Shown piece by piece: positions 1,556-19,446 of a DNA stretch of 19,552 nucleotides. The translations under genes and the position numbers were made by a program. Position 1 is the stretch's first letter; each line of letters opens with the position of its first letter. Source of the DNA: Patescibacteria group bacterium (GTDB lineage: Bacteria > Patescibacteriota > Gracilibacteria > UM-FILTER-43-11); contig JAHIYT010000110.1 of NCBI GenBank assembly GCA_018814945.1, forward strand, positions 1 through 19,552, read 5' to 3'. The notes beneath the pieces were generated by a model that did no database searches, had not been told where the DNA came from, and worked only from the letters and a program-made list of their open reading frames with translations.

Positions 1556-1603
1556 TTCGTCAGTTAAAAAGCGCATTTTCGTTTTGTTTGACGGAGTTTT
1601 TTT
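1556..1603 (+). terminator. Rho-independent terminator after the tRNA
   Basis: CGTCA (1558-1562) pairs with TGACG (1589-1593). The stem can be extended outward with T/A and G-U pairs and inward, after a mismatch, by an AAAA/TTTT block. It is followed directly by GGAG and a run of seven T (1597-1603). It separates the tRNA from the surface-protein operon. The stem is only moderately strong. Confidence 0.6.
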
Positions 1604-1628
1604 GATACAATTAAATTTGGTGTATTAT
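1602..1628 (+). promoter_or_regulatory. Candidate promoter of the surface-protein operon
   Basis: TTGATA (1602-1607) and TATTAT (1623-1628) are spaced by 15 bases, slightly short for sigma-70. A TTTGAT reading of the -35 gives 16. Transcription would begin near 1635. The -35 overlaps the T tract of the preceding terminator. No better promoter is visible before the giant gene. Confidence 0.45.
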
Positions 1629-1671: not shown

Positions 1672-1740
1672 ATAAAATTTAAAACCAAACAAAAAATTAA
1701 AAATTGGAAAAGGATAATCGCAGGCGTCACTGTTTCTATA
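1672..1740 (+). other. In-frame N-terminal extension (signal-peptide n-region) lacking an ATG/GTG/TTG start
   Basis: The frame of the giant gene is open upstream of its first ATG (1741) as far as the TAA at 1669-1671. The extension is lysine-rich (KFKTKQKIKNWKR) and then hydrophobic (IIAGVTVSI), joining smoothly to MLANQLGYLGLSPF and an AxA-like NVNAQ end. That is the layout of a complete Sec signal peptide. No ATG, GTG or TTG is present in frame. The codon after the stop is ATA (1672), one base from ATG, and an ATT lies at 1696. No Shine-Dalgarno sits at a proper distance from the ATG at 1741. Confidence 0.6.
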
Positions 1741-4700
1741 ATGTTGGCTAACCAACTGGGTTATTTGGGATTATCACCTTTTGCAATTAAGAATGTAAAT
1801 GCTCAGAGTTTTACTCCTATAACAAATAACCAAGTTGATCCATATAATAATCACGATGAATTAGGACTGATTGCAATATTAGTAGAAAGTTCATTACTGA
1901 GTGATGGAAGCCTAAAGAATGACATCGTAAGGTATGCAAAAAATGCCCAAGAACGGATCCCTCACTCAAAGGCATTCATTATGGAAGTGGATAAAGAAGA
2001 ATCCACGCTAAAAATATCAACCGTTTTAGAAAAACTATATTACGAAGGCCTAGATACAGACTTATTGGATGACAGTATTTTAAATAATGACCTTGTAATT
2101 GAGGATGATAACAAATTAGCAGGGGTCATAATCATCGGTGATGTGCCGATTCCAGTCGTACACGATGAAACAATTCATCCAAGTATTTATCCATATACGG
2201 ATTTTTACAGAAAAATGTATATCTATAATTACGAAACTGAAAATTTTGAGCTAAATGGAGATGCAGAAAGTTATAACCCGGAAATTTGGCATGGCATAAT
2301 AGTTCCACCGAGTAAAGATCCATCAACTGGAAAGCAACAGTTGGAAGATTATTTTGAAAAGAACAATGCATACTCCGAAGGTGATCCTGATTATACAGAA
2401 TTTGATAAGCGCATGCTTTATGCCAATTTTCCTGAAATGGAGGATCAGATGAATTTTATGGATTACAGGAATTATGAAAGATACGGAGATTATATGGAGG
2501 AAATGGCATTTTACAGGTACAACAAACATTTATTAAAAGAACTTATCGGTGAAGTTAGCACTGATATGGGGTCGAGTGATCCTATTATTCCAGATGAAAC
2601 AATAGATAGTATGTTGGATGTCACAACTGACTTTTTGTTAGAAAAATATATGACACCGCTTTCCACCGCACTAAAGATATACAGAGGAAAGTTGAATGAC
2701 AAAATTGATGAAAGTGGCAGGTGGACATCGTCGGAAATAGATACACCGGACTCGCTGGTATCAATGAGGGATGAATATGCGAAATTCGATCTAAGAGAAA
2801 AACAAATGTCATTGGAGAATGAAATTGATGAGGTAATTGAAGACGAAGTTAGTGAACTTGATAGAGCCATAGAGGTTACTACTGGTGCAACGTTGAAAGT
2901 TAATTTGGTAATTTTTGATATTGATACGGACACCACAAGCTTTACATTCGATAGTTATGTGGATGGACAAAGGGTATTGGATATAACAAATGTGCAGGAT
3001 TGTGGAATATACAGAGGTTCAAAAAGAAGCCGTGGTGAAAGTGTTTTGGAAAATAATTCAGTTTTGGTAAAAGCTAATAGGATGTACAACCCTGCGAGCC
3101 TAATTGAACCACCAGATGATGATGACTGGGAATTAGAAGAAGACGAAGACTACATAGATTATGCAGGATGTGTATTTAATAATTCGGTTGAAGTTGATAC
3201 GGATGAAATTGAACTCAATCCTAATTTTTGCAAAACTGAAGAAGCCATTCTTTCACTCTTTGACATAATTGGTTCAAGAGAAGAGGAAGAGAGGATATTT
3301 GAACCGGGAACCTGCTCAATTGATTTTATGAGCTTCCACACAGGAAACGATCTAGATTTCGCAGCAACTGCTGCCGGTAGCGATATAATTGGAAAAACAA
3401 TGGGTGAAGTGATTAACGATGTATACAGTAAATTGCGAAATAGTGGTCATATTACAGAGATTGCAACTACACAACGTGCAAGGGCATCTGCGGTATTAAG
3501 AGCACTTATTAAAAATGATTTAACAGTAGAGTACGAACCAATTATAGGTGCAGATATTAGAGTTTGGGCAAATGAAAAGACAAAAGATATAGATAGTCTT
3601 GATAAACACACTGAACCAACCAGCTCAACTATTGCAACCATCAAACACATTGGTGAACCAAGAGTTATCAACGGAGAATTAAACTTCCCACAAATTGTCA
3701 CCCATAGCATTCCATCTGATGGAATTAGGTATATAGGACTTGCAGATAATGGTGAAAGAAAGGAATATGAGTATCCAAATATTTATAGAATAGAAGGAGA
3801 AAACGCCGGTGAAATTGCGGATAATTTAATCTCAACAATTATTGATAAAGAAGACGAATTGGAAACGCTAATTGGAGGTACAACAAATGTAATCAGTCGA
3901 TTCTTTTATGACAATTCAGAAGTAATAGAACCAATTATTTGGAATTCACTTGGAACGGATCAAAAGTTGGCTGAAATAATTCCAAAGTATTTAGATAGAG
4001 ATAGCTTGATGCCAGCTCCGAATAATAGCCCACCAAGGTATCCTCAAAATAAACCAAGTGGGTATGAAGTAATGCACATAGTTTCCAATGGTGATACTTG
4101 GGGATACAATTTTGGATTAAATAGTGCCATGAGACCAATTTCAGATGAGGCACTGGAGAACGCGCAGGCAGCCGCAGAAGAAAGTGGTGATGGAGATGGA
4201 GAAGGTGAAGCAGGTGATGAAGGTGGAATATCAGATGAAGGAAATTATGTATGCGGAGATCCAAAAGGTGTAGAAATTTGGGAATGGTTTGATGCACTTC
4301 AGTGTTGGATAGAGGAAGAAATCATTCCGGCCGCAGAATTGTTTAAATTAGATGAATCGTGTGGTGCTGCATTACCAGAAGCAGAAGAGGAAGATGAGGA
4401 AGATGAGGGATATGTGGATCTAATTGAAGATACCAGTGGTATACCTGTGCAAATAAACGCAGTAATGGAACGAAAAAGCTTGGTGATTGATCAGCAGGAA
4501 ATCATTAAGCTTTATCCATTAAATTCCGAAGGAAACAGTGTAATTGGCTACATAGACACACCCGTTCATTTGGAATTATCTAATCTTGATATTGGGGAAT
4601 TTGATAAAAACGATTTCAATATTTTTACCGGAGAAGAGCAGGTAATATTCACAGCAAAGGAAATTGGAACAAGTCAATTATATATAACCATGGGTGACAT

Positions 4701-7700
4701 TGAACTAAGTCCGCCTTTGCAAATAAATGTATATGAATATATAGACATTGCTTGGTCAGATCAGGCATTTGAAGATGGCGCAAAAACCAACTTCAATATC
4801 AATGTAAAATTATTTAATCCAAGTGGCCAAAGGATTACAGATGTAAATACGGACATTGTACTTTCAGCACAGCAACCTACAGATGGCGGATTTGAAGATG
4901 GAGGAAGAATACAGCTAATTGAAGGTGGGGGCAGTATTGTTTTTGAACCAACGCCCGGACCAACCGAAATAGTATTGATTGAAAAAGACCAATATATCAC
5001 AAACAATCCGTATACAATTTACCCACCGCCAAATCAACCTGTACAACTTGTTATTAAATCACCTAGTTATATTCCCGTCGGAGAAATATCGGAAATGGAA
5101 GTAGCAGCTGTAGATATTTACGGAGTAACTGTGCTGGACTTTAACGAAAGCATAGAGCTAAACATTAACGAAGAAAGTGAAGAATACGCAAGTATCCTGA
5201 ACCCAAATCTCACACTTTCGAATGGAAAAGGCAATGTTAGAATCCAAGCGAATAAACATACTGGAGAAATTCTCCTAACCGCATCTCATCCGGATTTGAA
5301 AGGAGGAGTTAGTGTACTACCAATACTTGCAAGAGTGGAAAGTGATGACTGGTCCTCTATGTATAGTCAGAATTTATTTGCTTCATTTGTTGGATTCCCG
5401 GCGGGTAATTTCTTTGAAGAAAATTATTTCGGTGGAGCTCATTTATTTAATGGAAAAACAGAAGCTGTGTATTCGTTCCTGACAGGACCAACACCAGCAC
5501 CAGTTATTTCCGTTGAACCAAACTATAAAATCAATTTAACCCAGCCCCAACAAAAGGTTTATGTTGGAACATTGGGTAGTTCGATCTTGTTGCAAGCGTT
5601 TGATTTAGGATCGTTAAAGACCCTTATTAACAAAACAATTCCATTAGATTTTGATGACGTAATAATGTGGGAGCAAGGTATGACTCCTGAGCAAAACAAC
5701 TTGTATGTAGAACTTTTGGACAACAATTATAAAATTACTGAAACAAATAGTGGAATAAAAATCTCAACTATCTTCGATGAAGTCATTCTTGATGTAAGAA
5801 AAGATGAAATTAGTATTCCAAATCCGGATTACATACTCGAATACAATCCTGAACCTGAATTTAATTTAATCGAACTTATACTAACCGATGGCTTTGGTAA
5901 TACGGCTAGATTGATGTTAAACCTTGAACCGGAGTCTTTAGACGAAAATAATTTTGATTTAATTGATGGAGGGTATTTAGTAGAAAGAACATACAGCGGA
6001 AATAGTACAAATGCTCCTAGTGGAATTGTGCTTTATGAATTTGGTGCAGAGATAGAAAAAGAAATAAGGGGCGAATATTACGGACTTGAAGGAGAAAGTA
6101 ACTATATACAATTATTCGCCAGCGGATCCCCTGTTGGAGAAGCTGTGAGGTACAATTTGCCATCTAATGGAATTTTACTTGGAGATCCAACCATCCAAAT
6201 TAAAACAAAAAGTTCATCCGGACTTAATTACGACAAATCTAAAGGTAATAAAATTTACCAAGATTCAAGAAATGCACAGATTATTTCCATCAATCATTTT
6301 AACTTTAATAATGACGGTTACGAAGATGTAGCAATGGTGATGGAAGACGGTCGTATCAGACTTTTAGAAGGCGGTGCAACAGAGCCTATTTTGCAAGACA
6401 GAGGGGATATTGCATTTTTTGGAGACGGAACTATTGCCGTAGAAGTGTTTGATTTTGCAAATGACAATTATGAAGATTTATTAGTTGCAACGGATGAAGG
6501 AAGGCTCGCAATTTTGCACAACGATAAAGAAGTAATAACAAGAACTGATCAAAAGATTAAGGTTGGTAAAAAATTATATACACTTTTGAAAGGAGATATG
6601 GATAAGGATGGATTTGAAGATTTGGTGACATTGGATAGTCGTGGAGATATTAGAATTTTTTATAATCAAAACAATGTAATTCCGGAGAATGGAACACTGA
6701 TTGGTAATTACGGATTCAGCCTAGCACTTGGAAATAATTTGTATAAAGATCTGGATGTTAGATACCCAGGACTCGATCCTCCAACAAGCAGTGGAGGTAT
6801 AGATTTGTCAGCGCTACCAATTCCAAGTTTGCCTACTCCAGGGGTTGAACCATCAGGCTCTCAAACAAATGCAATGCAGGACTTCCTGGATGGAAATATA
6901 ACTAATCCAAGTGAATCTAAATCGAATTCATTAATTGATGCACTCAGAGAAATGGCAGCAGCGGCCAGGGAAGACCCTGCGGCATTTGCAGGTGGAAGTG
7001 CACCACCACTTTTGCCATGGCCAGAAGAAAATAGCACTGCAACAAAATCGGATGACGAATTAGAAACATATTTCGCACCGGTTGAAGACACAAGTTTCTT
7101 AAATGTAAGTAAAACCGTTTACAACAAAGAAAGGCCTGATGAGCCAAATATTGATTTGGATGAGAGCCTTGTTTACACAATTGATATTTATTCATCAAGT
7201 ACTGTTAGCAATGTAGTATTTGCAGATACAGTGCCAGATGCGCTAACTGCAGATTTAACAACTGCAATTTGTGAAGGCGCAGGATGTGCCAATTTTGAAA
7301 CAACACAAAGTGGAATAAGGTTGTTCCTAAGTGGAATAACTTTATACGCAGGAAGCACAACAAGAATCAGTTACGAAGCAACAGTCGCCCATACGCCAAG
7401 AGCTAGCGTACTTATTCAACAGCTAACCGACCCACTTTCCATTAGTGATCCATATTTGGATATTATGGTATCTCCACCATACAACACTACTGGAGATTGG
7501 ATTCAACATTACACTACGGGACCACGAAGCTATGCAATTAGGTCAACCAGTGGTGACATTGCAGAACCATCCGATATGGAAGCAGCTCTTGAAGAAAGTG
7601 GAGACTTTATCGCAACCTTGGCAGCATTTGGCGAAGAGGAATACGATGAAGATAATCAACCCGATTTCTCAACTATTGAATTCCCAGATGCAGTGGGGGA

Positions 7701-10700
7701 CGCGTTGAATGAAGCAACCGGTGGTGATGAATGTTTTGATGTGAACCCAATAGATGGACAAATGCAACTGGGATGTAGTTCACAAGCTCTGGATGATATA
7801 GCTGGTGCAATAAACGATTTCGCGTGTATGGGCGGAGGATGCTTTCCAATGCCGTTTAACTACACATTTATGGTTCCTCAGGAAATGCCATTCCCAATTT
7901 TCGCGTTCCCAACAACCCAGCCAACAGCTGTAGGACCAATACCATTTATTTGGCCGGGGTCATTTATAGGAGCCTCCAATATTAGTGGACCAATTGTATC
8001 CATGATGAGATTTTATATGGGAATAAGTTTGACTGGAGGTATGGGTATAGCAATGTGTTGGGGGCCATATATGGGTTCAACCACACCACCACCACCTATG
8101 GCGCCTATTCCATACCCACCACCAATTGGCAACTGCATGGTAACAGCATTGCCAGCGGATAAAATATGGGGCGGACTTTGCGGCAAGATTGAAGAGGGAA
8201 TTAATCAGTTAATGCAATGGATCAATTCCGGAATCAATAAAATTAACTCAGCAGCTGCTAGTGTAAATAATAATCAAAACATTCCTGCTGAATTCACACA
8301 AACTGGAGGCGACAATAGTGCTGGCGGACTTGAGATTGGGCTAGCAGTAAATCTTGGTGAATCCATGAAATTTGAACCACCAGCCCAAGGCTTTTCTAAC
8401 CTGCACATTCCTGCATTCGATTCACTTGGGGGAGTGATTTCTAGTTGGGTAGACAGGCAAACTATGGAAATAGTAAACAAGCTTTTAACACTTCCAACGT
8501 TCTATATTTATCTTCCGGATATTAAATCGCTATTCAGTTTGGATATTGAAAAAACTGAAAAAGCTGCAGAAATTTGGGTAGAAAATATGGGAAGATCTCC
8601 AGCGGTTACCGGAGCAGCATTAAAAGAAATCAAAACAAATGATGAAGAAGGATTTTTAGAAGGCATGGATGCATTGGAGGCTCAGGCAAGAATATTTAAT
8701 CTAAACGCACTTGAGGGAATATACGACGTAGCCAGCGCATTGCCACTAGTGAATATAAGCGAGTATCCAATTGAGTTTAAAGTACCATGGCTATCTGCCG
8801 CAGAAATTCAGGCATATATTATTGAACTCGAACAATGGAAAACTCATTACGAACGAGAATTTAATAGAGTGAAGGACAAGTGGGAAAAGCTTACATGTTC
8901 AGCTGGTGATAATGAAACTGCTGGGCAAACTGCAGATGAGATTTCCGAATGTGCTGCCATGAAGATAGCGGAAGCATTCACTGCAGACTTTGAACCATTG
9001 TTAGAAAGCGTGCAGGAAAATATTGAAGTGCTTCAATCGTATTTGAAGTTCCCAAGACAATTTGTAAAATATAAAAGCCAACTTGCAGACTACGTAAGAG
9101 GTGTTGCCTGCTATCTGGATACAATCGCACAAATGCTAGGTGGTTGGTATGGAACCATTAAAGAGCAAGTGATAACTTGGGCTGAATTAATTTTAACCAT
9201 TATCGAAATTATTAAAAATATCAAAGAACTCTTTGATCTATTTATTGATTTCGATACAAGTTGTTCTATTTGTACAAACGAAAGAAATGCGAACTTTGGT
9301 TGGTGGATGTTACTTGGGTTAATACTACCGGAAATTCCAATAATTTCATTTCCTAAGTGGCCGGATATTGTATTTGATATCTCAAATATAGACGCAGCAA
9401 TTAATGTTGAATTGCCAATTCTTAGAATCACACCGGAACCTATTCCGTTGCCACCATTACCATATTTAAGGTTACCGGACTTCCCTACTTTTGATTTACT
9501 TCTGTCTCTTCCGCCATTGCCGGTATTGCCTAGACTGCCAGAATTCCCTGATCTGCCGGAATTACCGCCTTTACCAACCGTAGATTTACCAACACTGCCA
9601 TCTCCGCCGAAATTACCGGACATTGGTAAGCCATTTGAATTAATAATTCCGATAATTGAACAGCTTTTGAATATTTGGTGTCTGATGAAGAAAGCATTCG
9701 CACCTGTACCAGAAGCGTCTCTAAACGATCAGATAACACTGCTTACAAACAGACCTGCATATTTGATTCCTTTGGATATGCTCAAGCTTCAACTGCCAAA
9801 CATTGCACCGTTTGATCTGGGCTTTAATGAAATGCGTATTGATGTAACTGCATATCTTGGTCTTAGAATTCAGTTGGTTTCAAAAGCATTAGAAAGTGGT
9901 GCCGAACAATGGAATGAGTGGATTGAGGCAATACCGGAGGCAATGAATGAAGCTTATGAAGAATGGTTGGCAGCTCAAGAAACTTTTGTGCAATCAAAAA
10001 TTGATGAGTTTGAAGAAAAGATGGCAGAGGGTACACAGTGGCTTGAAGATCAATACCAAGAAGGGCTTGATGAAATGACCGAGGACCTAGCGGAAGCTTT
10101 CGAAGCGGCTGATGAATATTTACGCGACAAAGAAGATGAATGGCAGGATTGGGCAGATGAACAAGGATTAGAAATTGATTATCAGGATTATGTAAATGCA
10201 ATTAATGATGCAAATGGAAAAATTGAAGATTGGGGTAATGATGTTACTGATAAAATTGATGAATTCTTTGATGAAAATATCAACTTCAGTAATTTATGGA
10301 ACGATTTTGTAGAATTAGGAAATCTTCTTGGAAAAATATCAGAAAAATATTGGAACAAACCAGAAGTTCTAGAAGAGGTTAATAAAAATGTAATAAATGC
10401 GAGTGAAAAGGAAGAATTAAAGATCTACTTACAGGCTTGCTTATCAGATGAGGAACAATGTTTTAACGGCGATGCTTATCTAAGTTACTCTGAACAGCAA
10501 AATATAGATTACACATTACAAACTAACCTGGAAAAACAATTCTTAGGACTACTCGCAGAGCTAAATGTAGTGGTAGATGAAATAAAAAATGCAGAACTTG
10601 TGGACTTTAGAAAAGTAAAAGAAGATTTAGGAGTACCTGATTATAAGTTGGAACCAAGAATTAATTCTGAAGATAAAATTAATTGGATGAGAGGCGAGCT

Positions 10701-13700
10701 ATTGGCATATAGCGATCAATTAGATAAAGAAGCTGAAGAGTTAAAAGATGTGAGAGATTTATACGCACTTGCAAAAGTGCCACCAAGAAGCGCACTGCAA
10801 TATGAACTGGCAAGCGTAGAATATGAACCGGTAATAGATAATGAAGAAAGGCGAGTATTTTCAAGCGCGGTAATACCAACCAATTCAACAAATAATATCT
10901 TTGCACAACTTGAAGAGGAGAAAGTTGAACTTTTAGAAACGATTGAACGTAAAGCTAAAGCAATCACAGGTGAAGCTATAGATTCGGATGATGGATATTG
11001 TAGCGGAGTTTGTCTACCAGACCCAATCACAGATCAACCTACTGAATTTATTCCAGTTATATACAATCCGATTAATTCCGAGACATTATTCTTACCATCT
11101 GGTCATGTTGTTTATAGCGACGGAACTGCATTGTACTTAAAACGAGATTTAACTATTGATACGGAAGATGTAAATACTGGCGATAGTGAAATTCTTGAAC
11201 TTAGTTTAAATAAAACTTTCCTTTCACGGCTTGGTCAGTATCCGGACAGCATGGAAGCAATTAACATGCTCAAAACAACATTGGTTGAAAATGGTTCAGT
11301 GGAATTCACGTGGCTACCAAGCACGAATCCAAATGCATACGGATATGGAATAGAGTTAGAGAGATCAATTCTTGGTTACGATATAGACAGATATAGTAAC
11401 GAATTGCCTGACACCAAATTTGTACTATTACCACCAGATGAAACAGGTAAAGTCCCTGAGGTGCTGGTAGATGGTGAAGTAATTCCTTACGGAGTGCTTA
11501 TTACCAGCATAGAAGATGAAGAAGAAGCCAGAGAACATTTTGGAATTGAAGCAGATGAATTTAGAACCGGAGCTTCGCAAGTAACATTCACGACAATAAA
11601 CGGTGCAACTATTACATTAGATGAAAACAAGGCGGTTTACTTTGATAAGTACACAGGCTCTTCTTATGGTATGAACATGGTTAATGGCTATTACCACATA
11701 AAGATGACGTGGTTTAGTAGGGAGGGAAGAGTAGCGAGTTATAACCAAAGTGAACTTCTTGCACCACAGATTTATGTAGACGCGGCACCTCCAATTGATA
11801 TCGCAGAATCAGATACTTATTACGTTCCAATTTACAAAGAAAAACGTATTAATGCCGGTGAAATATTTGTAGATCTTTCTGATGTTTACAATTATTACTG
11901 GTATGTAGATGTTGAAAATAACCCATTAACCCCGGAGATTGGCGACCAATTATTTATATCACCTCAACACGAGCCTAAAGAATTTTCAGTTAAACTAGTT
12001 GCAACCCAAAATATTGAAGATGAATTGTTTGAAAAATATGAAAAAACTTTCAAGGTTGTAGTTTATGTTCCTAAAATTGAATTAGAACCAGATCCGCTTG
12101 GTGATGGAACTGTACAGGGTACACTCAAACATATTAATGAAGCTCCAAATGATTACTTGAGCAATATTCCGTTTAGTCTGTTCCGCAAGAGGTGGAATAC
12201 ATGGAAAAATTTAGGTCTGCTTATCGCCAAGGATGGAGCAAGTACACCGCCACTTAATGATCACTCAGATAAACCATATGTATATCCGGACAGCTACTAC
12301 ACAATAACTGATGAAGGAGAATATGTTATTTCCGGAATTGATTTTACCGATCCAAGTCCAATTATATTAAGAGATTTTGAAGCTGAAGATATTGCACGTG
12401 TACTGCCTGAAACCGGTAGGATAGAACTATTACAAGAAGGTTATAAAATACAGCCACTTTCAGCAACACCAAACTTACCTACTAGAGTTGCGGTTATAGA
12501 AGAAGAAACTGATTTAATAGCAGGCAATGTCTATTACGTACCTGATATGAATACAGATGTAGAAACAATAGAAGAGGACTTAAACATAAATAATATATTT
12601 GAGATAGGAACCACAGTTGGTGACGCAAATTTAAACGACGACATAATAGCTATAAATATTCCTGGTTACGCTCCGAGTTATCCAGGTGGCGTTGCCATAT
12701 TTAATCAAACCCCACCACAAAAGAACATTGCACTTATTGATACAGATGGTTCTATTAGAATTATGCAATCTGGCTACAAGTTAAGAATTAAGAATGAAAG
12801 CAATGAAGGAGAAAGATATATCTTCCAAATAATTACAGAAAATGATGATGAGATTTTTGACGTATATATTCATGCTAATTTCAACAACCTCGCTATCCAA
12901 CATGGTGAAGTAATGGATGAACAAAGCACAGTAATCGGATTAAACGAAATAGAGAGAATATTCGCACAATCGGATGATCAATCCGATCTTCAATCCGAAC
13001 AGCTATCCGATCCCCCATCCGAAAACCCTTTCCCAGATCTAGATAGCAGTCATCCATTCTATGAAGAAATTATAAATTTGTATAAAGCTAGGGTTATAAG
13101 TGGTTATGGAGATGGAACATTTAAAGCAGATGAAAAATTAACGCGTGCAGAATTTATTAAAATTGCATTAGGTGTTACAAACTGTTACGACTGTACAATG
13201 GCAACGGATGCGCAGAAAGAAAAATACAAACCATTCGCACCATTCCCAGATGTTAAGTTGCCTGCTTGGTATTACTACTGTGTATCAATCGCTAAAGACC
13301 TAGCTATGATCACAGGTTATGGTGATGGGCTATTCAGACCAAATAGAAATATAAGCAGGGCAGAAGCTGCAGCGGTACTACTTAGACAATCGCAAATAGA
13401 AATAATGGAAATGCCTGAAGGATTCTTTCAGGATATCCCGGAATATGCTTGGTATAAAGATTACGTTTACACCGCTGTTATGATAGGACTTATTAAAAAT
13501 GATTTTGGATTTGTACATCCGGATGAAGAAATTACCCGTGGTGAATTTGCATTTATGGGTACTGGCGTAATGAATATGTACGATTGTCATGAAGTGGATG
13601 AAGATGGTGATGGTATGCCTGACTGGTGGGAAGTTGAAAATAACTTGGACCCACTGTTTGCAGGCGATGCGGATGATGACAACGACGGTGATGGAAGAGA

Positions 13701-14256
13701 TAATTTGCAAGAATGGTTAGATGGAACTGATCCAAATGTTGCAGATACCCCTGAAGAGCCTGCAATAGAAGAGGGGGTATGTCCATGTACCGATAATCCA
13801 AATCAAAATGACACGGATGGCGATGGATTGATTGACCCATGTGATGATGACCTAGATGGCGACAGTATACCAAATACTTTATGTATGTTTGATGACAGCG
13901 GACTTGTTGACGACGAGCTTGCAGCAGGAAGTGTGGATAATTGTATATTTGATCCAAACGAAGATCAGCTAGATAGTGACTTTAATTATGTTGGAGATAT
14001 ATGTGAACCAACCGATGAATGTCCACCTATACCGGAAGATTACGATGGTGTACTGGATGGAGATGGATGCCCAGATATAGATGATTATTTTGAAGACAAT
14101 CCACCCGGCATTTATGTAAATAGTGGCCCAGCTTGTAATTTTATTGATTACGAATCAGATTTTGTTGAGGGGGATGTAATCATGACAGCAATTACGGATA
14201 TAACTACTCACGATGTAATTTTTGAAGGAAGTAATGAAGCAACTTATCAACCATAA
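1741..14256 (+). CDS. Giant secreted SLH-anchored surface protein (about 4,171 aa)
   Basis: An exported mosaic protein of roughly 0.46 MDa, strongly acidic. Visible parts, in residues from the ATG: signal peptide remnant 1-22; an alpha/beta-looking N-terminal region with LAGVIIIGDVPIPVV (127-141) and SIYPYTDF, loosely like the fold of caspase/gingipain-type domains but with no catalytic His/Cys pair I can identify; a Gly/Glu/Asp linker near 810-830; beta-rich Ig/invasin-like segments about 900-1480; three FG-GAP/VCBS-like repeats with Asp/Asn-rich loops (1515-1660); a DUF11-like domain (1786-1882); a Cys-bordered Pro/Gly/Met-rich segment (2029-2147); helical regions; an LPxLP tract (2567-2631); an acidic coiled-coil-like stretch (about 2717-2860); further beta domains including a duplicated GRIELLQEGYK / GSIRIMQSGYK motif (3559, 3670); a QSDx linker; three SLH domains (3763-3815, 3834-3890, 3894-3947); and calcium-binding thrombospondin-3-like DxDxDG repeats (3953-4110). 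SLH domains attach proteins to cell-wall polymers in many bacteria, so wall anchoring is expected. Whether it is an adhesin, an S-layer component or a host-contact protein is not known. First gene of a five-gene operon. The true start is probably upstream of 1741. Confidence 0.9.
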   Translation: MLANQLGYLGLSPFAIKNVNAQSFTPITNNQVDPYNNHDELGLIAILVESSLLSDGSLKNDIVRYAKNAQERIPHSKAFIMEVDKEESTLKISTVLEKLYYEGLDTDLLDDSILNNDLVIEDDNKLAGVIIIGDVPIPVVHDETIHPSIYPYTDFYRKMYIYNYETENFELNGDAESYNPEIWHGIIVPPSKDPSTGKQQLEDYFEKNNAYSEGDPDYTEFDKRMLYANFPEMEDQMNFMDYRNYERYGDYMEEMAFYRYNKHLLKELIGEVSTDMGSSDPIIPDETIDSMLDVTTDFLLEKYMTPLSTALKIYRGKLNDKIDESGRWTSSEIDTPDSLVSMRDEYAKFDLREKQMSLENEIDEVIEDEVSELDRAIEVTTGATLKVNLVIFDIDTDTTSFTFDSYVDGQRVLDITNVQDCGIYRGSKRSRGESVLENNSVLVKANRMYNPASLIEPPDDDDWELEEDEDYIDYAGCVFNNSVEVDTDEIELNPNFCKTEEAILSLFDIIGSREEEERIFEPGTCSIDFMSFHTGNDLDFAATAAGSDIIGKTMGEVINDVYSKLRNSGHITEIATTQRARASAVLRALIKNDLTVEYEPIIGADIRVWANEKTKDIDSLDKHTEPTSSTIATIKHIGEPRVINGELNFPQIVTHSIPSDGIRYIGLADNGERKEYEYPNIYRIEGENAGEIADNLISTIIDKEDELETLIGGTTNVISRFFYDNSEVIEPIIWNSLGTDQKLAEIIPKYLDRDSLMPAPNNSPPRYPQNKPSGYEVMHIVSNGDTWGYNFGLNSAMRPISDEALENAQAAAEESGDGDGEGEAGDEGGISDEGNYVCGDPKGVEIWEWFDALQCWIEEEIIPAAELFKLDESCGAALPEAEEEDEEDEGYVDLIEDTSGIPVQINAVMERKSLVIDQQEIIKLYPLNSEGNSVIGYIDTPVHLELSNLDIGEFDKNDFNIFTGEEQVIFTAKEIGTSQLYITMGDIELSPPLQINVYEYIDIAWSDQAFEDGAKTNFNINVKLFNPSGQRITDVNTDIVLSAQQPTDGGFEDGGRIQLIEGGGSIVFEPTPGPTEIVLIEKDQYITNNPYTIYPPPNQPVQLVIKSPSYIPVGEISEMEVAAVDIYGVTVLDFNESIELNINEESEEYASILNPNLTLSNGKGNVRIQANKHTGEILLTASHPDLKGGVSVLPILARVESDDWSSMYSQNLFASFVGFPAGNFFEENYFGGAHLFNGKTEAVYSFLTGPTPAPVISVEPNYKINLTQPQQKVYVGTLGSSILLQAFDLGSLKTLINKTIPLDFDDVIMWEQGMTPEQNNLYVELLDNNYKITETNSGIKISTIFDEVILDVRKDEISIPNPDYILEYNPEPEFNLIELILTDGFGNTARLMLNLEPESLDENNFDLIDGGYLVERTYSGNSTNAPSGIVLYEFGAEIEKEIRGEYYGLEGESNYIQLFASGSPVGEAVRYNLPSNGILLGDPTIQIKTKSSSGLNYDKSKGNKIYQDSRNAQIISINHFNFNNDGYEDVAMVMEDGRIRLLEGGATEPILQDRGDIAFFGDGTIAVEVFDFANDNYEDLLVATDEGRLAILHNDKEVITRTDQKIKVGKKLYTLLKGDMDKDGFEDLVTLDSRGDIRIFYNQNNVIPENGTLIGNYGFSLALGNNLYKDLDVRYPGLDPPTSSGGIDLSALPIPSLPTPGVEPSGSQTNAMQDFLDGNITNPSESKSNSLIDALREMAAAAREDPAAFAGGSAPPLLPWPEENSTATKSDDELETYFAPVEDTSFLNVSKTVYNKERPDEPNIDLDESLVYTIDIYSSSTVSNVVFADTVPDALTADLTTAICEGAGCANFETTQSGIRLFLSGITLYAGSTTRISYEATVAHTPRASVLIQQLTDPLSISDPYLDIMVSPPYNTTGDWIQHYTTGPRSYAIRSTSGDIAEPSDMEAALEESGDFIATLAAFGEEEYDEDNQPDFSTIEFPDAVGDALNEATGGDECFDVNPIDGQMQLGCSSQALDDIAGAINDFACMGGGCFPMPFNYTFMVPQEMPFPIFAFPTTQPTAVGPIPFIWPGSFIGASNISGPIVSMMRFYMGISLTGGMGIAMCWGPYMGSTTPPPPMAPIPYPPPIGNCMVTALPADKIWGGLCGKIEEGINQLMQWINSGINKINSAAASVNNNQNIPAEFTQTGGDNSAGGLEIGLAVNLGESMKFEPPAQGFSNLHIPAFDSLGGVISSWVDRQTMEIVNKLLTLPTFYIYLPDIKSLFSLDIEKTEKAAEIWVENMGRSPAVTGAALKEIKTNDEEGFLEGMDALEAQARIFNLNALEGIYDVASALPLVNISEYPIEFKVPWLSAAEIQAYIIELEQWKTHYEREFNRVKDKWEKLTCSAGDNETAGQTADEISECAAMKIAEAFTADFEPLLESVQENIEVLQSYLKFPRQFVKYKSQLADYVRGVACYLDTIAQMLGGWYGTIKEQVITWAELILTIIEIIKNIKELFDLFIDFDTSCSICTNERNANFGWWMLLGLILPEIPIISFPKWPDIVFDISNIDAAINVELPILRITPEPIPLPPLPYLRLPDFPTFDLLLSLPPLPVLPRLPEFPDLPELPPLPTVDLPTLPSPPKLPDIGKPFELIIPIIEQLLNIWCLMKKAFAPVPEASLNDQITLLTNRPAYLIPLDMLKLQLPNIAPFDLGFNEMRIDVTAYLGLRIQLVSKALESGAEQWNEWIEAIPEAMNEAYEEWLAAQETFVQSKIDEFEEKMAEGTQWLEDQYQEGLDEMTEDLAEAFEAADEYLRDKEDEWQDWADEQGLEIDYQDYVNAINDANGKIEDWGNDVTDKIDEFFDENINFSNLWNDFVELGNLLGKISEKYWNKPEVLEEVNKNVINASEKEELKIYLQACLSDEEQCFNGDAYLSYSEQQNIDYTLQTNLEKQFLGLLAELNVVVDEIKNAELVDFRKVKEDLGVPDYKLEPRINSEDKINWMRGELLAYSDQLDKEAEELKDVRDLYALAKVPPRSALQYELASVEYEPVIDNEERRVFSSAVIPTNSTNNIFAQLEEEKVELLETIERKAKAITGEAIDSDDGYCSGVCLPDPITDQPTEFIPVIYNPINSETLFLPSGHVVYSDGTALYLKRDLTIDTEDVNTGDSEILELSLNKTFLSRLGQYPDSMEAINMLKTTLVENGSVEFTWLPSTNPNAYGYGIELERSILGYDIDRYSNELPDTKFVLLPPDETGKVPEVLVDGEVIPYGVLITSIEDEEEAREHFGIEADEFRTGASQVTFTTINGATITLDENKAVYFDKYTGSSYGMNMVNGYYHIKMTWFSREGRVASYNQSELLAPQIYVDAAPPIDIAESDTYYVPIYKEKRINAGEIFVDLSDVYNYYWYVDVENNPLTPEIGDQLFISPQHEPKEFSVKLVATQNIEDELFEKYEKTFKVVVYVPKIELEPDPLGDGTVQGTLKHINEAPNDYLSNIPFSLFRKRWNTWKNLGLLIAKDGASTPPLNDHSDKPYVYPDSYYTITDEGEYVISGIDFTDPSPIILRDFEAEDIARVLPETGRIELLQEGYKIQPLSATPNLPTRVAVIEEETDLIAGNVYYVPDMNTDVETIEEDLNINNIFEIGTTVGDANLNDDIIAINIPGYAPSYPGGVAIFNQTPPQKNIALIDTDGSIRIMQSGYKLRIKNESNEGERYIFQIITENDDEIFDVYIHANFNNLAIQHGEVMDEQSTVIGLNEIERIFAQSDDQSDLQSEQLSDPPSENPFPDLDSSHPFYEEIINLYKARVISGYGDGTFKADEKLTRAEFIKIALGVTNCYDCTMATDAQKEKYKPFAPFPDVKLPAWYYYCVSIAKDLAMITGYGDGLFRPNRNISRAEAAAVLLRQSQIEIMEMPEGFFQDIPEYAWYKDYVYTAVMIGLIKNDFGFVHPDEEITRGEFAFMGTGVMNMYDCHEVDEDGDGMPDWWEVENNLDPLFAGDADDDNDGDGRDNLQEWLDGTDPNVADTPEEPAIEEGVCPCTDNPNQNDTDGDGLIDPCDDDLDGDSIPNTLCMFDDSGLVDDELAAGSVDNCIFDPNEDQLDSDFNYVGDICEPTDECPPIPEDYDGVLDGDGCPDIDDYFEDNPPGIYVNSGPACNFIDYESDFVEGDVIMTAITDITTHDVIFEGSNEATYQP
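9439..9633 (+). repeat. LPxLP proline-leucine tract inside the giant protein
   Basis: Residues 2567-2631 alternate Pro and Leu in short units (PLPPLPYLRLP, LPPLPVLPRLPEFPDLPEL, LPTLPSPPKLP), about one Pro in every two to three residues. Such tracts form extended polyproline rods or docking surfaces. It follows a hydrophobic helical region and precedes the acidic helical region, so it may act as a stiff spacer. The nucleotide units (CCGxxxTTACCG-like) vary, so this is an old repeat, not a fresh slippage product. Confidence 0.8.
12967..13026 (+). repeat. Five 12-base units encoding a QSDx linker before the SLH domains
   Basis: Five consecutive four-codon units read QSDD, QSDL, QSEQ, LSDP, PSEN. 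The first two units are CAATCGGATGAT and CAATCCGATCTT, and the later ones have diverged. The array ends immediately before the first SLH domain (PFPDLD...), as expected for a flexible linker. A second array of the same unit and the same total length occurs in the gene at 15848-17794. Confidence 0.8.
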
Positions 14257-14257
14257 A

Positions 14258-15064
14258 ATGAAAAAACTTATTCCAATCATAGGTTTCGCAATGCTAATAG
14301 TAGGAATACTGGGATGGCACGAGACGTCGTACCCACAACTAGACGTACCGCATTCAGAAGCCAATACTTGTTGGCAAGCCTATGAAGATAGTATCGAAGC
14401 GATTGAAAATTCTTGGGAGGAAAATTTACAAACCCTTATGGACCAAGAAAAGGCATCTAGTGAAATGGTAGATGAAGCATTTGAAGGCTTCCGCAGTTAT
14501 AAATGTATGCTGGAGTATGTCTGTAGATCTGTTCAGTATAGCGGATATGGATCACCACTGAGCGCTATAGGCACAGGTTTAACAAAAGCTCATATAGGTA
14601 GCATTGCCGGCTGCCAAGACCCGGAAGATATTGGACTGCCAGGCGGATTTGAAGAAGTAATGACGAGCATAATCACACTTGGATACGATCAAGCAGATAT
14701 TCAATACAACAAATATCCGTTTTATGAACAATGCATGACAGATGTAAATAATCCCGAATCAATAAGTCTAACAAGCTCACAGGAAAATTATAATACTTGC
14801 ATGCAATACATAGATAAAAAACTTGGATGTAGAAATACTGAAGAGGGTGTAAAAAACTGCCTGCTGGATAATTCAAGCGCTTTTGTAAAAATGGAAACTG
14901 CACTAAGAAAAAATCAGGCAGATCAAAAAGTGGCTGCATTTGAAAACAAAATGAATTCAATAATGACAAAAATGTTTACATTAGAAGCCCATGTTGGCTA
15001 CTTGCAAAATAATTTAAGAGAACTTTATAACCGATATGACTGCTTCCCAAGTAGTTGTAATTAA
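14258..15064 (+). CDS. Secreted Cys-containing helical protein, unknown function (268 aa)
   Basis: Not recognised. The N-terminus MKKLIPIIGFAMLIVGILGW is a Sec signal peptide or single membrane anchor. The remainder is mostly helical and polar, with ten cysteines spread through it (for example CW, KCMLEYVC, GCQDP, QCM, TCMQYI, LGCRN, NCLLD and a DCFPSSC terminus). An even number suggests disulfides and an extracytoplasmic location. The chosen ATG at 14258 follows the giant gene's TAA after one base, matching the TAATG-like junctions of the next genes. An in-frame ATG at 14234, with AAGGAAG just upstream, would add eight residues and overlap the giant gene. Either way, coupling to the giant gene is likely. 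The C-terminal half (about residues 205-255) looks like a coiled coil. Confidence 0.85.
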   Translation: MKKLIPIIGFAMLIVGILGWHETSYPQLDVPHSEANTCWQAYEDSIEAIENSWEENLQTLMDQEKASSEMVDEAFEGFRSYKCMLEYVCRSVQYSGYGSPLSAIGTGLTKAHIGSIAGCQDPEDIGLPGGFEEVMTSIITLGYDQADIQYNKYPFYEQCMTDVNNPESISLTSSQENYNTCMQYIDKKLGCRNTEEGVKNCLLDNSSAFVKMETALRKNQADQKVAAFENKMNSIMTKMFTLEAHVGYLQNNLRELYNRYDCFPSSCN

Positions 15065-15068
15065 TGCA

Positions 15069-15848
15069 ATGAAATTAAAAAAAGTTTTAATCATAGTGCT
15101 AAGCTTTGTTCTAATAGGTATACACATACCGACTGGCTATAGTGAAGGCGAAGAATTAACCGAACCTCAAAAAGAATGTGAGGATAAAAAACCAGATTTT
15201 CTTGAAAAAAACGAAGAAGGAATTTTTGTTTTAATCAAAACGTTAGAAGATGAAATAACAGCCGGTACAACCAAATTAAATATAGATACTCTTAACGAGA
15301 AATTTGAAGATGCACAAAATAAATATCACAAATATATACAATGTATTTTCGATTATTCCGAAAACAGAGTTCTGGAAAAATTGATAAAACCGGATGGAGA
15401 ATATCCATCTGCAGAAGAAACATGTGGAATTGATGTGGTATCAATTATTGGTGATACAAATCCGGATCAAATGCTCACACCACTGTTAAACACATATAAT
15501 ATTTACTCAGAATATTTAGATGAATTGGGGTACATATATTTAAGATCAGGACGAGTTGATTCGGGAGAAGGCGGGGAAAACCTTTATAACGCATTACAAC
15601 AATACAATATTCTATCCGCTTCTTTTGATGAATTTAATAGAAAAATAAGTTCTGAAAAGGCAAATGCACTAGTCGCAATGGATATTACATTCGTTACTCT
15701 AAAAGAACTTAGACTCGCATTTGTAATGCACAACCATTTTCAATGTATGCTATTTAATTTAGAAAAATATAGAAACTTCTTGGGTAAGATTCGTACTCTT
15801 GTAGAAGGCTTACCAGGAAAACTCAAAGATGCAAGTATGACAAAATAA
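15069..15848 (+). CDS. Secreted helical protein, unknown function (259 aa)
   Basis: Not recognised. The start MKLKKVLIIVLSFVLIGIHIPTGYSEG is a clear signal peptide, probably cut near GYS or SEG. The mature part is acidic and strongly helical (LEDEITAGTTKLNIDTLNEKFEDAQNKYHKY...), with four cysteines that could make two disulfides. The ATG begins four bases after the previous TAA with no Shine-Dalgarno sequence. An upstream in-frame start at 15036 would put polar residues before the signal peptide and overlap the previous gene, so it is less likely. The size and style match the gene before it (signal peptide, helical body, scattered Cys), so the two could be distant paralogues or partners, but I cannot align them convincingly by eye. 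Confidence 0.85.
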   Translation: MKLKKVLIIVLSFVLIGIHIPTGYSEGEELTEPQKECEDKKPDFLEKNEEGIFVLIKTLEDEITAGTTKLNIDTLNEKFEDAQNKYHKYIQCIFDYSENRVLEKLIKPDGEYPSAEETCGIDVVSIIGDTNPDQMLTPLLNTYNIYSEYLDELGYIYLRSGRVDSGEGGENLYNALQQYNILSASFDEFNRKISSEKANALVAMDITFVTLKELRLAFVMHNHFQCMLFNLEKYRNFLGKIRTLVEGLPGKLKDASMTK

Positions 15849-17794
15849 TGAAAAAAATATTCTTATCAATCATAGGAGTAATTGCATTCATATCAATACC
15901 AGCAATAAGCCTGGCAGGTTATTGTGACCTCGCTACATGGAACACTTATCAAAGTGTTTACTGTGATCTTGCATGGGATGGTAACCAAAAACCTGATGAA
16001 GAGATTATGGATGCTATTGCAATTCAACTCGGTTTTGATGAAATAAATAACGGAGGAGAGCTTGTAAGAATAATAGTAAGTGGTGAACTTGATCTAGCAG
16101 ATGTCATTCCTGAAACTACGGAAGAAGAAACATGCAACAGAATAGGAATTAACAAATTTATGAACGATAACAACGTAAAGCTTGATGAACTACCTATAGA
16201 TATTAAAAATGCATGTTCAGCTACGGACTCACGTAGTGAAGCAAGTGAATGGGGTAGGGTTATAAATAGTGTGCGATCAGCCTACGACAAAGAAAGAGTT
16301 TTATATCACACCAAAAAGAGTATGGAATATGAATTCCAATCTTCAGAAAAATATTGGGATAACTCACTAATGAATTCTCCATTTGATTTAATGCTTGATT
16401 TAAATTTAATTGAAATTGTGCTATTTGGAAGCCAGGCCCAATGGATGAATGATGTATTTATGTTCCCAGTGGAAGAAGATGAAGGTGGAGGAGGAGAAGG
16501 AGAGGGTGAAGGTGAAGAACCTGATGTAGAGACGCAAGATCTTGCGTCTCCGGGGGGTGATGAAGCCGAGACCGAAGGTGTTACAGCAACCACAACCGAA
16601 ACAGAAGGTAGTGAACCAGACTGCGTGCCAGCAGATGACCCCGATGCTGACCTTGGCGACACACCGGGAAATGAAGCCAATCCTGAATGTGGCAATGGGG
16701 AATTGGATGTATTACTTGGTGAACAATGTGACGATGGTAATAATGTATCTGGTGATGGATGCAGCCAATACTGTATGAAAGAAGCAACCGGAGCAGATGA
16801 TGTATGTATGGATCCTGATGCAGTTACTTTCCAATCTCCATCTAATTCTCAATCCGGCAGTCAATCTGATAATCAATCTGATAACCAATCCGACGATCAA
16901 TCCAATGGCTGTCCACCAGGCACATTCCCTACACAAGACACATCCATAACAGGCCCAGGCCTTGATGAACAGCCAGAATATCCTCAATCTAATGACTATC
17001 CAGGACCACATACAGGTGGAACATTTAAAGATTATCCGCCAAGCACAGCACCTGCATGCCCACCTGGTTATAGTGAAGTGGTAATTCAATACGGAAATAA
17101 GGAAGAAAGAAATTGTGTACCAACTGAATTCTGTGCAAGTTTTGATGATATACGCGAACATTTATTTGGAGAAGATTGGCAGGAAGACGAAGCAAAATCA
17201 TCGGTTGCAACAGCTATTGAAGCTTTGTTCTGTGTAACCGTTACAACAGCAAATAGACCTACCACCCCGTATGCAATGAACGATGGATGTATTGATTGTC
17301 ATGTTATAGGAATGGTGGATGCTTTGGACAAAGCATTAGAAACAAATGTATCCCCTCTTGAAAATACAACCGGCAGTTTTGGTATAAGCAGTAGATGGGG
17401 GCCTAAGTTCTCATTCAATTTGGTTACGGCTTTAAAATCCAAATTTAAGGTGGTACTTCCTCCGGATAATCAAAAAACTGCAATGCAAAAAGCTGATGAA
17501 GCAAGGGCAGCATCTTTAGCGGAGAATGGAATGGTAGAACCAACAATAAGCACTGGCGAAAGTGGAGTCGAAGAATTAGCCAGAAAACAAGAACAAGAAC
17601 AAACAAGTAGTGCAACGGTATTGAATGACCTAAAAAATTATCGTGTAAGTAATGTCGCCATTAGTGATCAATCTTTCTCTTCAAGAGTACTACCACTGTT
17701 CCAACAAATGCTAAAGAGTTTTGAACGTATTGAAAGTAAACTTATGGGAATAGCGGAAATTGCAATTAATCAAAAAGATACATGCCAATTCTAA
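15848..17794 (+). CDS. Secreted Cys-rich protein with DUF4215-type repeat (648 aa)
   Basis: Signal peptide MKKIFLSIIGVIAFISIPAISLA, with likely cleavage before GYC (residue 24). An N-terminal globular part (24-205) is followed by a low-complexity Glu/Gly linker (about 208-226). A Cys-rich repeat at 281-309 has the hallmark CGNG...GEQCDDGNNVSGDGCSQYC. This is the DUF4215/Myxococcus cysteine-rich repeat signature, found in secreted proteins of myxobacteria and some uncultured phyla. A five-unit QSDx linker (335-354) and a Pro/Cys-rich segment (CPPG repeats) follow. The C-terminal part (about 420-648) contains CIDCH at 481-485 and a helical Gln/Glu-rich tail. The ATG overlaps the previous stop by one base (TAATG). 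Its function is unknown; an extracellular structural or binding role fits. The CIDCH motif could bind heme c but could equally be a disulfide. Confidence 0.88.
   Translation: MKKIFLSIIGVIAFISIPAISLAGYCDLATWNTYQSVYCDLAWDGNQKPDEEIMDAIAIQLGFDEINNGGELVRIIVSGELDLADVIPETTEEETCNRIGINKFMNDNNVKLDELPIDIKNACSATDSRSEASEWGRVINSVRSAYDKERVLYHTKKSMEYEFQSSEKYWDNSLMNSPFDLMLDLNLIEIVLFGSQAQWMNDVFMFPVEEDEGGGGEGEGEGEEPDVETQDLASPGGDEAETEGVTATTTETEGSEPDCVPADDPDADLGDTPGNEANPECGNGELDVLLGEQCDDGNNVSGDGCSQYCMKEATGADDVCMDPDAVTFQSPSNSQSGSQSDNQSDNQSDDQSNGCPPGTFPTQDTSITGPGLDEQPEYPQSNDYPGPHTGGTFKDYPPSTAPACPPGYSEVVIQYGNKEERNCVPTEFCASFDDIREHLFGEDWQEDEAKSSVATAIEALFCVTVTTANRPTTPYAMNDGCIDCHVIGMVDALDKALETNVSPLENTTGSFGISSRWGPKFSFNLVTALKSKFKVVLPPDNQKTAMQKADEARAASLAENGMVEPTISTGESGVEELARKQEQEQTSSATVLNDLKNYRVSNVAISDQSFSSRVLPLFQQMLKSFERIESKLMGIAEIAINQKDTCQF
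16529..16550. repeat. Perfect 22-base palindrome inside a coding linker
   Basis: GAGACGCAAGA (16529-16539) is followed directly by its exact reverse complement TCTTGCGTCTC (16540-16550), giving an 11-bp stem with no spacer and a central AGATCT. It lies in frame in the low-complexity linker of the DUF4215 protein and encodes ETQDLAS plus flanking bases. GTAGAGACGC-type palindromes are known as dispersed repeats in several bacterial groups. A small mobile repeat captured within a gene is the likely explanation. Confidence 0.75.
16850..16909 (+). repeat. Five 12-base units encoding a QSDN linker
   Basis: Units read QSGS, QSDN, QSDN, QSDD, QSNG. The DNA consensus is about CAATCYGAYRAY, and the two central units differ by one base (CAATCTGATAAT and CAATCTGATAAC). 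The array matches, in unit and in total length (60 bases), the linker before the SLH domains of the giant protein. Confidence 0.85.
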
Positions 17795-19329
17795 AAAGAA
17801 CAATCATTGGCGTATTTATATTACTTGGATTAATCGTCCAATCTCAAAACGTGCACGCACTTTGGTCACCAATAATTTCAAAACAAGTGGGGCAAATTAA
17901 ACAACATATATTGGAAGCAAGAGAAGTAAATGGCACTGGTACACTTGCGTCTGCATCTGCATATTTACAAAGCAGAGATGATGAAGCAAGAGCACAAAAT
18001 ACTGCAGTCGGAACACCGGCAGGGGCGTCAACTGCACAGCAGGAAGTTAGGAAGGATGTCATAAAAAATATATTCTATGCACCATTAGACGCAATATATT
18101 CGATATTTAATATATATCCATCCACAGAACAAGTTGTAAGCAATTGTTTAAGAGATGATATTTGGTATTTAGAAGATCTGAAGGACGTAGTTGTTCAGGA
18201 AATGATTAAATCCTATTTAATGGGTGATGGTTACCATGGCGATATTTTAAGGACAGACTACAAATATTTAAGAGATACTGTTAATGATCTAAAACAATAT
18301 GGTGGTAATCCAACCAAAGAAATAACGGAAGGACTTACTTCAAGTAGAAAGTTTTTTGGGGCAGATAATACAATTAACTATTACACACCAATAGCACTTG
18401 GAGGTGAAAATGGGGTAGGTGTAAGTACAGATGAATGTGAAGAGGTTTGTCTGCCAGACTGTGATTGGTTTGTAGATGAAAAAAAAGAAGAATGTATAGA
18501 TGAATGTAACAGTAACTGCACACTAGCTTCAACGATTACATGGGAAGGCTGTCCAGATGCTGAATTTTTGGATGCAATAAATGAAACATGGGAAAGCATA
18601 AAAACTTTTGGAGTAATTGCCAGTGGCAGTAGTGTTGAATGGGGTGACATTTGGGAAATGGCCGAAGCTCGTGCAAAAATTCGTGCTGCCGAGTGGATTG
18701 AAGCTAACCAAATCACACTTACAATTGGTGGAGAGAAAGGTGGTAATGCACAAAGTTTGGTAAAAGGTGGTGGCTGGGATAAATTTGTTGGAAAAGTAAA
18801 AACTGAATTAGGAATTTTAGTGAACAATGTACTTGGACCAGTTACACCATTGTTTGATTGGAGTTTATTTAGAGGTGACCAAACCAGTGTCTTTGAAAGC
18901 GGGTGTGTATATTACCAAGAGAACCCAGCCAATCCAGATGCTGGAGTATTCACACCTTGTACGGAGCAACAATTAAAAGATTACGACGAATGTGTCGCAA
19001 CAGCGCCTAATTTAAGAGACGTCATAGAATGCGGTAAATCTAGAAACATCAATAAGAAAGCAACTGCCATAAAAAGAATAAAAGACTTTCAGGCAGAAGC
19101 CACGGCACATAACAAAGAATTACAAAAGGCTGAAACTGCTTATGTATACAATATGCAACTAAACAGCGTTGGCGAACAGAATTTAATAGAAACAGAAAGG
19201 GTACTTTGGAAGATAAATATGAAAATTAAACAAGGTTACGAAGGCGTAAGTAAAGACGCCGGCAATCAATTGCCAACAATCCTTCAGAATTTAGAAGGGT
19301 TTGATAAAAAGCATTGCCCGAATAAATAG
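17782..19329 (+). CDS. Secreted protein with a doubled CX3CX3C cysteine cluster (515 aa)
   Basis: Not recognised. Signal peptide MPILKRTIIGVFILLGLIVQSQNVHA, with likely cleavage after VHA (AxA-like), so exported. The ATG lies inside the previous gene (13-base overlap), implying coupled translation. The mature N-terminal third is helical with an Ala/Ser/Thr-rich linker (about 50-88). At residues 219-246 six cysteines are spaced CX3CX3C, then ten residues, then CX3CX3C, which suggests a disulfide-stapled helical hairpin. More cysteines occur later (C257; the GCVYYQ, PCTEQ, ECVATAP and ECGKS segments; HCPNK at the end). The C-terminal 90 residues look like a coiled coil. It is the last gene of the operon. 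Its stop codon lies within a 24-base direct repeat. Confidence 0.88.
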   Translation: MPILKRTIIGVFILLGLIVQSQNVHALWSPIISKQVGQIKQHILEAREVNGTGTLASASAYLQSRDDEARAQNTAVGTPAGASTAQQEVRKDVIKNIFYAPLDAIYSIFNIYPSTEQVVSNCLRDDIWYLEDLKDVVVQEMIKSYLMGDGYHGDILRTDYKYLRDTVNDLKQYGGNPTKEITEGLTSSRKFFGADNTINYYTPIALGGENGVGVSTDECEEVCLPDCDWFVDEKKEECIDECNSNCTLASTITWEGCPDAEFLDAINETWESIKTFGVIASGSSVEWGDIWEMAEARAKIRAAEWIEANQITLTIGGEKGGNAQSLVKGGGWDKFVGKVKTELGILVNNVLGPVTPLFDWSLFRGDQTSVFESGCVYYQENPANPDAGVFTPCTEQQLKDYDECVATAPNLRDVIECGKSRNINKKATAIKRIKDFQAEATAHNKELQKAETAYVYNMQLNSVGEQNLIETERVLWKINMKIKQGYEGVSKDAGNQLPTILQNLEGFDKKHCPNK

Positions 19330-19343
19330 CGAGAAATCCGGTC
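19320..19343. repeat. 24-base direct repeat, copy 1
   Basis: Identical over 24 bases to 19447-19470; the shared core is AAATAGCGAGAAATCCGG. This copy contains the last sense codons (Asn-Lys) and the TAG of the 515-residue gene. The two copies start 127 bases apart. Confidence 0.9.
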
Positions 19344-19366
19344 CGAACGTAAATAGCCCGAACGTA
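19343..19366. repeat. Short tandem repeat CCGAACGTA
   Basis: CCGAACGTA occurs at 19343-19351 and again at 19358-19366, with a 15-base period. AAATAGC, part of the 24-base repeat, also recurs between them (19351-19357). The higher GC and repeated structure set this segment apart from the AT-rich genes beside it. Confidence 0.7.
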
Positions 19367-19394
19367 GTTGAAGGCGTATTGAAGTGAGAGCAAA

Positions 19395-19428
19395 AATACG
19401 TAAGATCTGCGAAGAAGATCTAAGTATT
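19395..19428. terminator. Stable hairpin between convergent genes, possible bidirectional terminator
   Basis: AATAC plus AGATCT on the left (19395-19408) pairs with AGATCT plus GTATT on the right (19416-19428) around the loop GCGAAGA, about 11 to 12 pairs with one small bulge. CGTATT (19375-19380) can instead pair with AATACG (19395-19400), giving an alternative fold. No long T run follows on either strand, so classical rho-independent termination is not assured. Position between convergent genes favours an end-of-transcript role. Confidence 0.4.
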
Positions 19429-19446
19429 GTTGAGGATTTCCCTATT

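Follow-up and report, generated by a model that had tools for sequence, protein, structure and literature searches.

Five consecutive genes on a 19,552-nucleotide contig of a Patescibacteria group bacterium (NCBI GenBank assembly GCA_018814945.1, contig JAHIYT010000110.1; this whole stretch is referred to as the window) encode a giant surface protein and four smaller, apparently exported proteins, g2 to g5, and we lean towards a reading of their sequences in which the five form one cell-surface complex of the Gracilibacteria/Peregrinibacteria class, with the giant as its scaffold and contact as its likeliest job. The five-gene order is conserved above chance, since 13 of 15 same-family loci and 22 of 24 named standard-code loci keep it, and its presence in many members of the class suggests an undescribed common surface structure. 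These are tiny bacteria thought to be dependent on other cells; much of their surface proteome is without annotation, and how they hold their partners is an open question. With this cluster, one giant can be named as a conserved gene family that has four fixed partners, and it offers concrete targets for study.

Conservation of the five-gene order

The window, itself a complete contig, comes from a genome of 1.03 Mb in 187 contigs and carries a tRNA-Val followed by five genes, all on the + strand:

1672..14256, + strand: giant surface protein gene, from open reading frame (ORF) analysis and homologues; first ATG at 1741
14258..15064, + strand: g2, exported protein of 268 aa; ATG start; conserved Cys C38, C181 and C267
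15069..15848, + strand: g3, exported protein of 259 aa; ATG start; Cys119 and His221 invariant in 21 sequences
15848..17794, + strand: g4, exported protein of 648 aa; SxFDLIxDLxxIExxxF motif and CxxC pair
17782..19329, + strand: g5, exported protein of 515 aa; CLRDDIWxLE motif

Counted from the first ATG, the giant ORF (1741-14256) has 4171 aa. The original prediction, made from the sequence alone, had drawn these five genes with junctions of +1, +4, -1 and -13 bases, which the ORF analysis reproduced exactly; it had left the conservation of their order across Patescibacteria to profile searches, and these bear it out. A search of 58 genomes with g4, the window's own and 57 relatives, hit regions beyond its Cys repeat in 15 of the 17 same-family relatives, the match in the other two (G005 and G011) being confined to that repeat. 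Some of the 13 ordered same-family loci have the giant cut by a contig end or a gene in two ORFs, and the two loci lacking the full order (L045 and L015) run into contig edges. The 24 named standard-code loci are those with at least 5.2 kb after the giant, and their rows are partly circular, as the profiles include genomes that recur among the named loci; the two exceptions are L148, which has all four small genes with the g2 ORF start overlapping the giant, and L155, which has none. Eight standard-code named loci with less than 5.2 kb comprise four with the full set, one with g2 only (L108) and three with none (L111, L121 and L137). With profiles built from the window's family and L046-L049 only, 20 new loci were examined in other families, and 14 of them have g4 next to the giant (E 2.7e-19 to 2.9e-85); the six without g4 beside the giant are L088, L089, L090, L099 and L100, all UGA-recoded by our reading, and L095, whose four small genes lie on a separate contig, between other genes.

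These data bear on a rival explanation, in which the genes share only export or regulation, being switched together while their proteins act separately. Partner genes can indeed live apart from the giant: in L172 (f24) the four lie together about 46 kb from its core, and separated partners occur in G262, G027, G346 and G348. We nevertheless consider this explanation improbable, because the same order, with mostly small gaps or overlaps, recurs across divergent families (L166, of f6, among the loci that keep it), and because in two f7 loci, L170 and L175, g2 is inverted yet still beside the g3-g4 cluster.

Distribution and co-occurrence in the class

Full-length giant homologues are found across the class of Ca. 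Peregrinibacteria, Peribacteria and Gracilibacteria. The proline-rich core of the giant (aa 2318-2720) was matched at E<=1e-5 in 229 of 353 class genomes (156 of the 236 good-quality ones), usually once per genome; some genomes have two or three matches, many of these being pieces of one. Among 379 sampled genomes of the phylum, all 22 with the core belong to the same class, and the core is thus a class signature. Coverage exceeds 75% for the core profile in 51 of the 55 named giants and for the N-terminal profile in 39. The names on the 55 loci are Ca. Peregrinibacteria, Peribacteria, Gracilibacteria, Altimarinus or simply Patescibacteria, a class which we take to be GTDB class Gracilibacteria. 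The core alignment comprised the window and 50 of the 51 spans (all except L154), and the N-terminal alignment the window and 31 of the 39 (all except L117, L122, L129, L133, L137, L148, L150 and L152).

The deep g4 profile was built from 16 of 18 non-family g4 sequences (L091 and L049 set aside), and a g4 profile matches 201 of the 353 class genomes. Core and g4 occur together in 181 genomes, core alone in 48, g4 alone in 20 and neither in 104 (Fisher p 2e-31, uncorrected for ancestry). By hand count, 33 of the 48 core-only genomes belong to f10, f14, f20 and f21, families in which g4 scores low and the core places carry TGA stops. Ten of the 20 g4-only genomes have the N-terminal part of a giant, and two more (G008 and G010) have a giant tail at a contig edge. 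The giant-g4 link therefore holds at the level of the genome, as 181 of 201 genomes have the core and 12 of the 20 others another part of the giant.

At the margins of this distribution, no giant N-terminal match was obtained in the seven genomes tested of f5 and f8, and one f5 genome (G198) gave a marginal core match. In f13, where no core was found, ORFs of about 640 aa in two genomes give a partial giant N-terminal match (G029:C6:8464-8787 and G047:C51:7163-7519; E 2.8e-16 and 1.2e-20). Three f32 genomes (G322, G323 and G319) have the giant N-terminal domain in open frames of some 5,470-5,780 aa, with g4 on the same contig; the proline-rich core is not detectable in them.

The giant protein

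The giant is a mosaic of the following parts:

1861..2721, + strand: N-terminal domain with a predicted gingipain-like fold, aa about 41-327; no conserved Cys in range
6433..6642, + strand: FG-GAP/beta-propeller-like part, aa 1565-1634; Pfam match below cut-off in the window
7792..9900, + strand: conserved core, aa 2018-2720; a Cys-containing part, helices, then a proline-rich LPxLP stretch
13027..13551, + strand: SLH domains, aa 3763-3937; Pfam PF00395 E 1.3e-27; NCBIfam stretch 3764-3937
13588..14040, + strand: DxDxDG TSP3-like repeats after the SLH part, probably calcium-binding

SLH domains bind pyruvylated wall polymer, and SLH surface proteins usually have up to three of them. The SLH region claimed for the giant by the original prediction is genuine, PF00395 matching in three stretches with the best at aa 3763-3806, and the linker design that it thought common to the cluster can be read as a QSDxQSD-type linker before the SLH part and again inside g4. 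SLH was found in all ten standard-code giant tails at E<0.01, eight of them above the Pfam cut-off, and in none of the last 990 residues of ten UGA-recoded giants, though the giant itself persists there. The TSP3-like repeats of the window giant give an NCBIfam match (3956-4001) below cut-off, and TSP3_bac reaches E<0.01 in 7 of 10 relatives, five of them above cut-off. FG-GAP_3 lies above cut-off in all three relatives scanned and Invasin_D3 in two. No Pfam or NCBIfam family fits the N-terminal part or the core at curated cut-offs.

The structure model of the N-terminal domain is predicted to share the caspase/gingipain fold of gingipains R and K (peptidase C25). Unlike gingipains, this head lacks a conserved Cys where the two align: among 32 sequences, no Cys column reaches 50% within the first 385 residues, a span that covers the fold-aligned range 6-292. 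His149 is present in 30 of the 32 and position 174 is kept in 17, while Cys386, kept in 31, lies outside the fold-aligned range. Pfam C25 is likewise absent from the matches listed for the window giant (E up to 1) and for nine N-terminal members (E up to 0.1); in the fold search of this domain, absences exclude nothing.

The start of the giant is unusual. The original prediction had noted signal peptides; this stands as a hydrophobic N-terminus for g2-g5, and for the giant the n-region is now placed upstream of 1741, in a frame that is open back to 1672 and contains no ATG, GTG or TTG. Its N-terminus, read from the sequence as a signal peptide with an uncertain start codon, combines a K/R-rich n-region with moderate hydropathy (1.46), and the lysine-rich n-region is conserved in the window's family. 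The start codon is probably non-canonical, with ATA at 1672 or ATT at 1696 as candidates. Eleven family members were compared (the window at 1672-1740, L101-L103, L105-L107, L109-L111 and L143), a set confined to giants complete at that end, those of L104 and L108 being broken or cut there. In nine of them the stretch that precedes the hydrophobic core contains no ATG, GTG or TTG, L105 and L110 having one each, and in eight of the nine a stop codon lies 9-17 codons ahead of that core. AUA or AUU initiation would be the simplest reading.

Giants of other families can be aligned with the window giant over their length, though not evenly. Per 60-residue bin, identity of the window giant to that of L047 reaches 0.48 (core) and 0.53 (SLH part), and to that of L048, a locus without the N-terminal end of the giant, 0.43 and 0.33; other bins are at or below 0.1 in both. 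In alignments with giants of other families, the best-conserved parts are the propeller-like part, the proline stretch and SLH, which makes a structural role a serious rival. The giant would then be an S-layer-like or wall-stabilizing element of the envelope, and g2-g5 would serve its folding, disulfides or assembly and take no part in cell contact. The SLH and TSP3-like tail, the usually single copy, the slowly changing structural parts and the CxxC pair of g4 all fit such an architecture. It is hard to square with the persistence of the giant in the recoded clade after SLH is no longer found, with families f5 and f8, which do without the giant, and with the lack of a usual start codon in most family members, which would be odd for a very abundant lattice protein; we therefore regard it as a doubtful alternative to a contact complex.

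A conduit, with the core forming or lining a channel that crosses the wall or enters a partner cell and with g2-g5 as parts of that channel, appears very improbable. The core is the best class signature, and it holds, at aa 2519, the only hydropathy window of the giant at or above 1.6 beyond the N-terminus, a borderline one. Against this, the core structure model is of too low confidence (pLDDT 68.6, pTM 0.48), and no channel fold stood out; it gave no convincing fold match of any kind, such absences excluding nothing.

The partner proteins

Each of g2-g5 has one hydrophobic N-terminal stretch, with no later 19-residue window of mean hydropathy at or above 1.6. The 'several cysteines' first noticed in them amount to 10, 4, 18 and 13 in g2, g3, g4 and g5, respectively. 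They had also been taken to be of unknown family, which agrees with the searches: g2, g3 and g5 fit none of the Pfam or NCBIfam families at curated cut-offs, and the one known-family match of g4 is its repeat:

16682..16786, + strand: Cys-rich acidic repeat within g4; TIGR02232 E 6e-10; DUF4215

The g4 sequences aligned from other families did not show this repeat. Searches of solved structures with profiles of the N-terminal part, core, g4 and g5 gave no believable relative, the matches being of coiled-coil type or due to chance (best E 0.0036). In the window's genome, g5 and the core are present in one copy each. A c-type cytochrome was ruled out for g4 (CxxCH), several homologues carrying CxxCE, and a cellulosome-type scaffold was rejected, no cohesin or dockerin being among the listed Pfam matches of the five proteins (E up to 1).

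Two observations concern related proteins. In G042 (f5), a genome in which no giant cluster was found, an open frame of 7,015 aa on contig C1 near 137005-155550 has several matches to the g4 Cys repeat (DUF4215-like). In f18, a second, smaller exported-looking protein lies near the cluster at L048:16803-18113 and L081:7201-8544; the L048 protein matches the giant (E about 1e-18), presumably via SLH.

The UGA-recoded clade

Gracilibacteria and Absconditabacteria decode UGA as glycine (PMC11452946, PMC8080830). We assigned genetic codes by frame length; the automatic selection gave L046, L091 and L165 table 25, but table 11 seems correct for L046 and is likely for the other two. The four partner genes were found beside the recoded giant in none of 17 named loci, six further recoded loci being too short. 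The original prediction had held that it would be refuted by small genes regularly found without a giant SLH gene nearby, and in this clade that is the case; the genome-level link described above stays. Many genomes of the clade have g4 elsewhere. In f14 and f21 loci, g4 and a neighbour are separate from the giant and often follow a gene that looks, by eye, ClpB-like.

In the core tree, the 21 recoded rows, picked by locus id against the assigned codes, all fall on one side of a 100/100 branch (L128 is long-branched and its position unsure), which is consistent with vertical descent. The genes that follow recoded giants were considered as diverged g4 and g5, given their right-looking sizes, and rejected: in L113, L130, L136, L142, L144 and L149 they start, by eye, like housekeeping proteins, e.g. 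a Der-type GTPase. A g5 match in L130 (E 2e-4) was dropped as one of these. The clade is a natural experiment in which the SLH tail was dropped and the cluster split.

A proposed surface complex

Most likely, the complex is wall-anchored and disulfide-rich, with the giant as scaffold. The giant would be exported and fold outside with disulfide bonds and calcium. Its C-terminal SLH domains would hold it on the wall, so that its N-terminal part would reach outward, and the gingipain-like head would probably no longer have protease activity and bind instead. The proteins g2-g5 would be exported in step and bind the giant, most likely at the conserved core, forming with it a rigid surface projection or collar. 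Such a structure probably has a role in cell contact, and its likeliest job would be contact with other cells or surfaces. In the recoded clade, the giant would have lost its SLH anchor and the partner genes would have moved or been lost.

A bolder version is tentative, and we think it unlikely to hold in full: that this is a class-defining contact organelle of an undescribed kind, in which four exported proteins, each of a new family, are united by a giant scaffold that has a proline-rich core and a probably non-cutting protease-fold head, and which the common ancestor of Gracilibacteria and Peregrinibacteria already used on other cells, the recoded clade having rebuilt it without a wall anchor.

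Relation to known systems

The giant is a known kind of surface protein, giant and SLH-anchored, in a new form and with new partner families. SLH-anchored surface proteins have SLH towards the C-terminal side, as here; the giant differs from them in size, core and partner genes, and its recoded members in tails in which no SLH was found.

No described system had been recognized by the original prediction, and our literature search, mostly of non-subscription papers, likewise yielded no paper recognized as describing the cluster; the available parts of PMC11452946, PMC8406219 and PMC6792436 contain nothing on it. The predator Vampirococcus lugosii (Absconditabacteria) has giant surface proteins, its ten longest being of 1392-4163 aa, with DUF11, integrin and fibronectin domains and a proposed role in host attachment (PMC8080830). 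They resemble the window giant in being very large surface proteins, from a related, UGA-recoded clade; compared by description, the accessible part of that account mentions no five-gene cluster, SLH or conserved core. In Ca. Peribacter riflensis, large exported Cys-rich proteins with FG-GAP annotation, which the window locus recalls, show weak similarity to Myxococcus Cys-rich repeats, include a 14-gene cluster averaging 1,655 aa and have been suggested to serve attachment; a giant with four small conserved partners is not described in the portion available (PMC4736985). A survey of huge proteins reports, in its accessible part, that Ca. Peregrinibacteria are enriched in them and that theirs are without COG assignment (PMC11573180).

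Flanking elements

A candidate promoter, read by eye, lies upstream of the giant:

1601..1611, + strand: extended -10-like element TTTGATACAAT

At least 7 of 11 same-family loci show, by eye, an element similar to TTTGATACAAT ahead of the giant, and a TTTTTGRTAnAAT-like element recurs in the window's family just upstream of the giant start region. At the other end of the cluster, the string AATAAATAGCGAGAAATCCGGTC is present twice at or just past the end of g5 (window 19320-19475, by eye).
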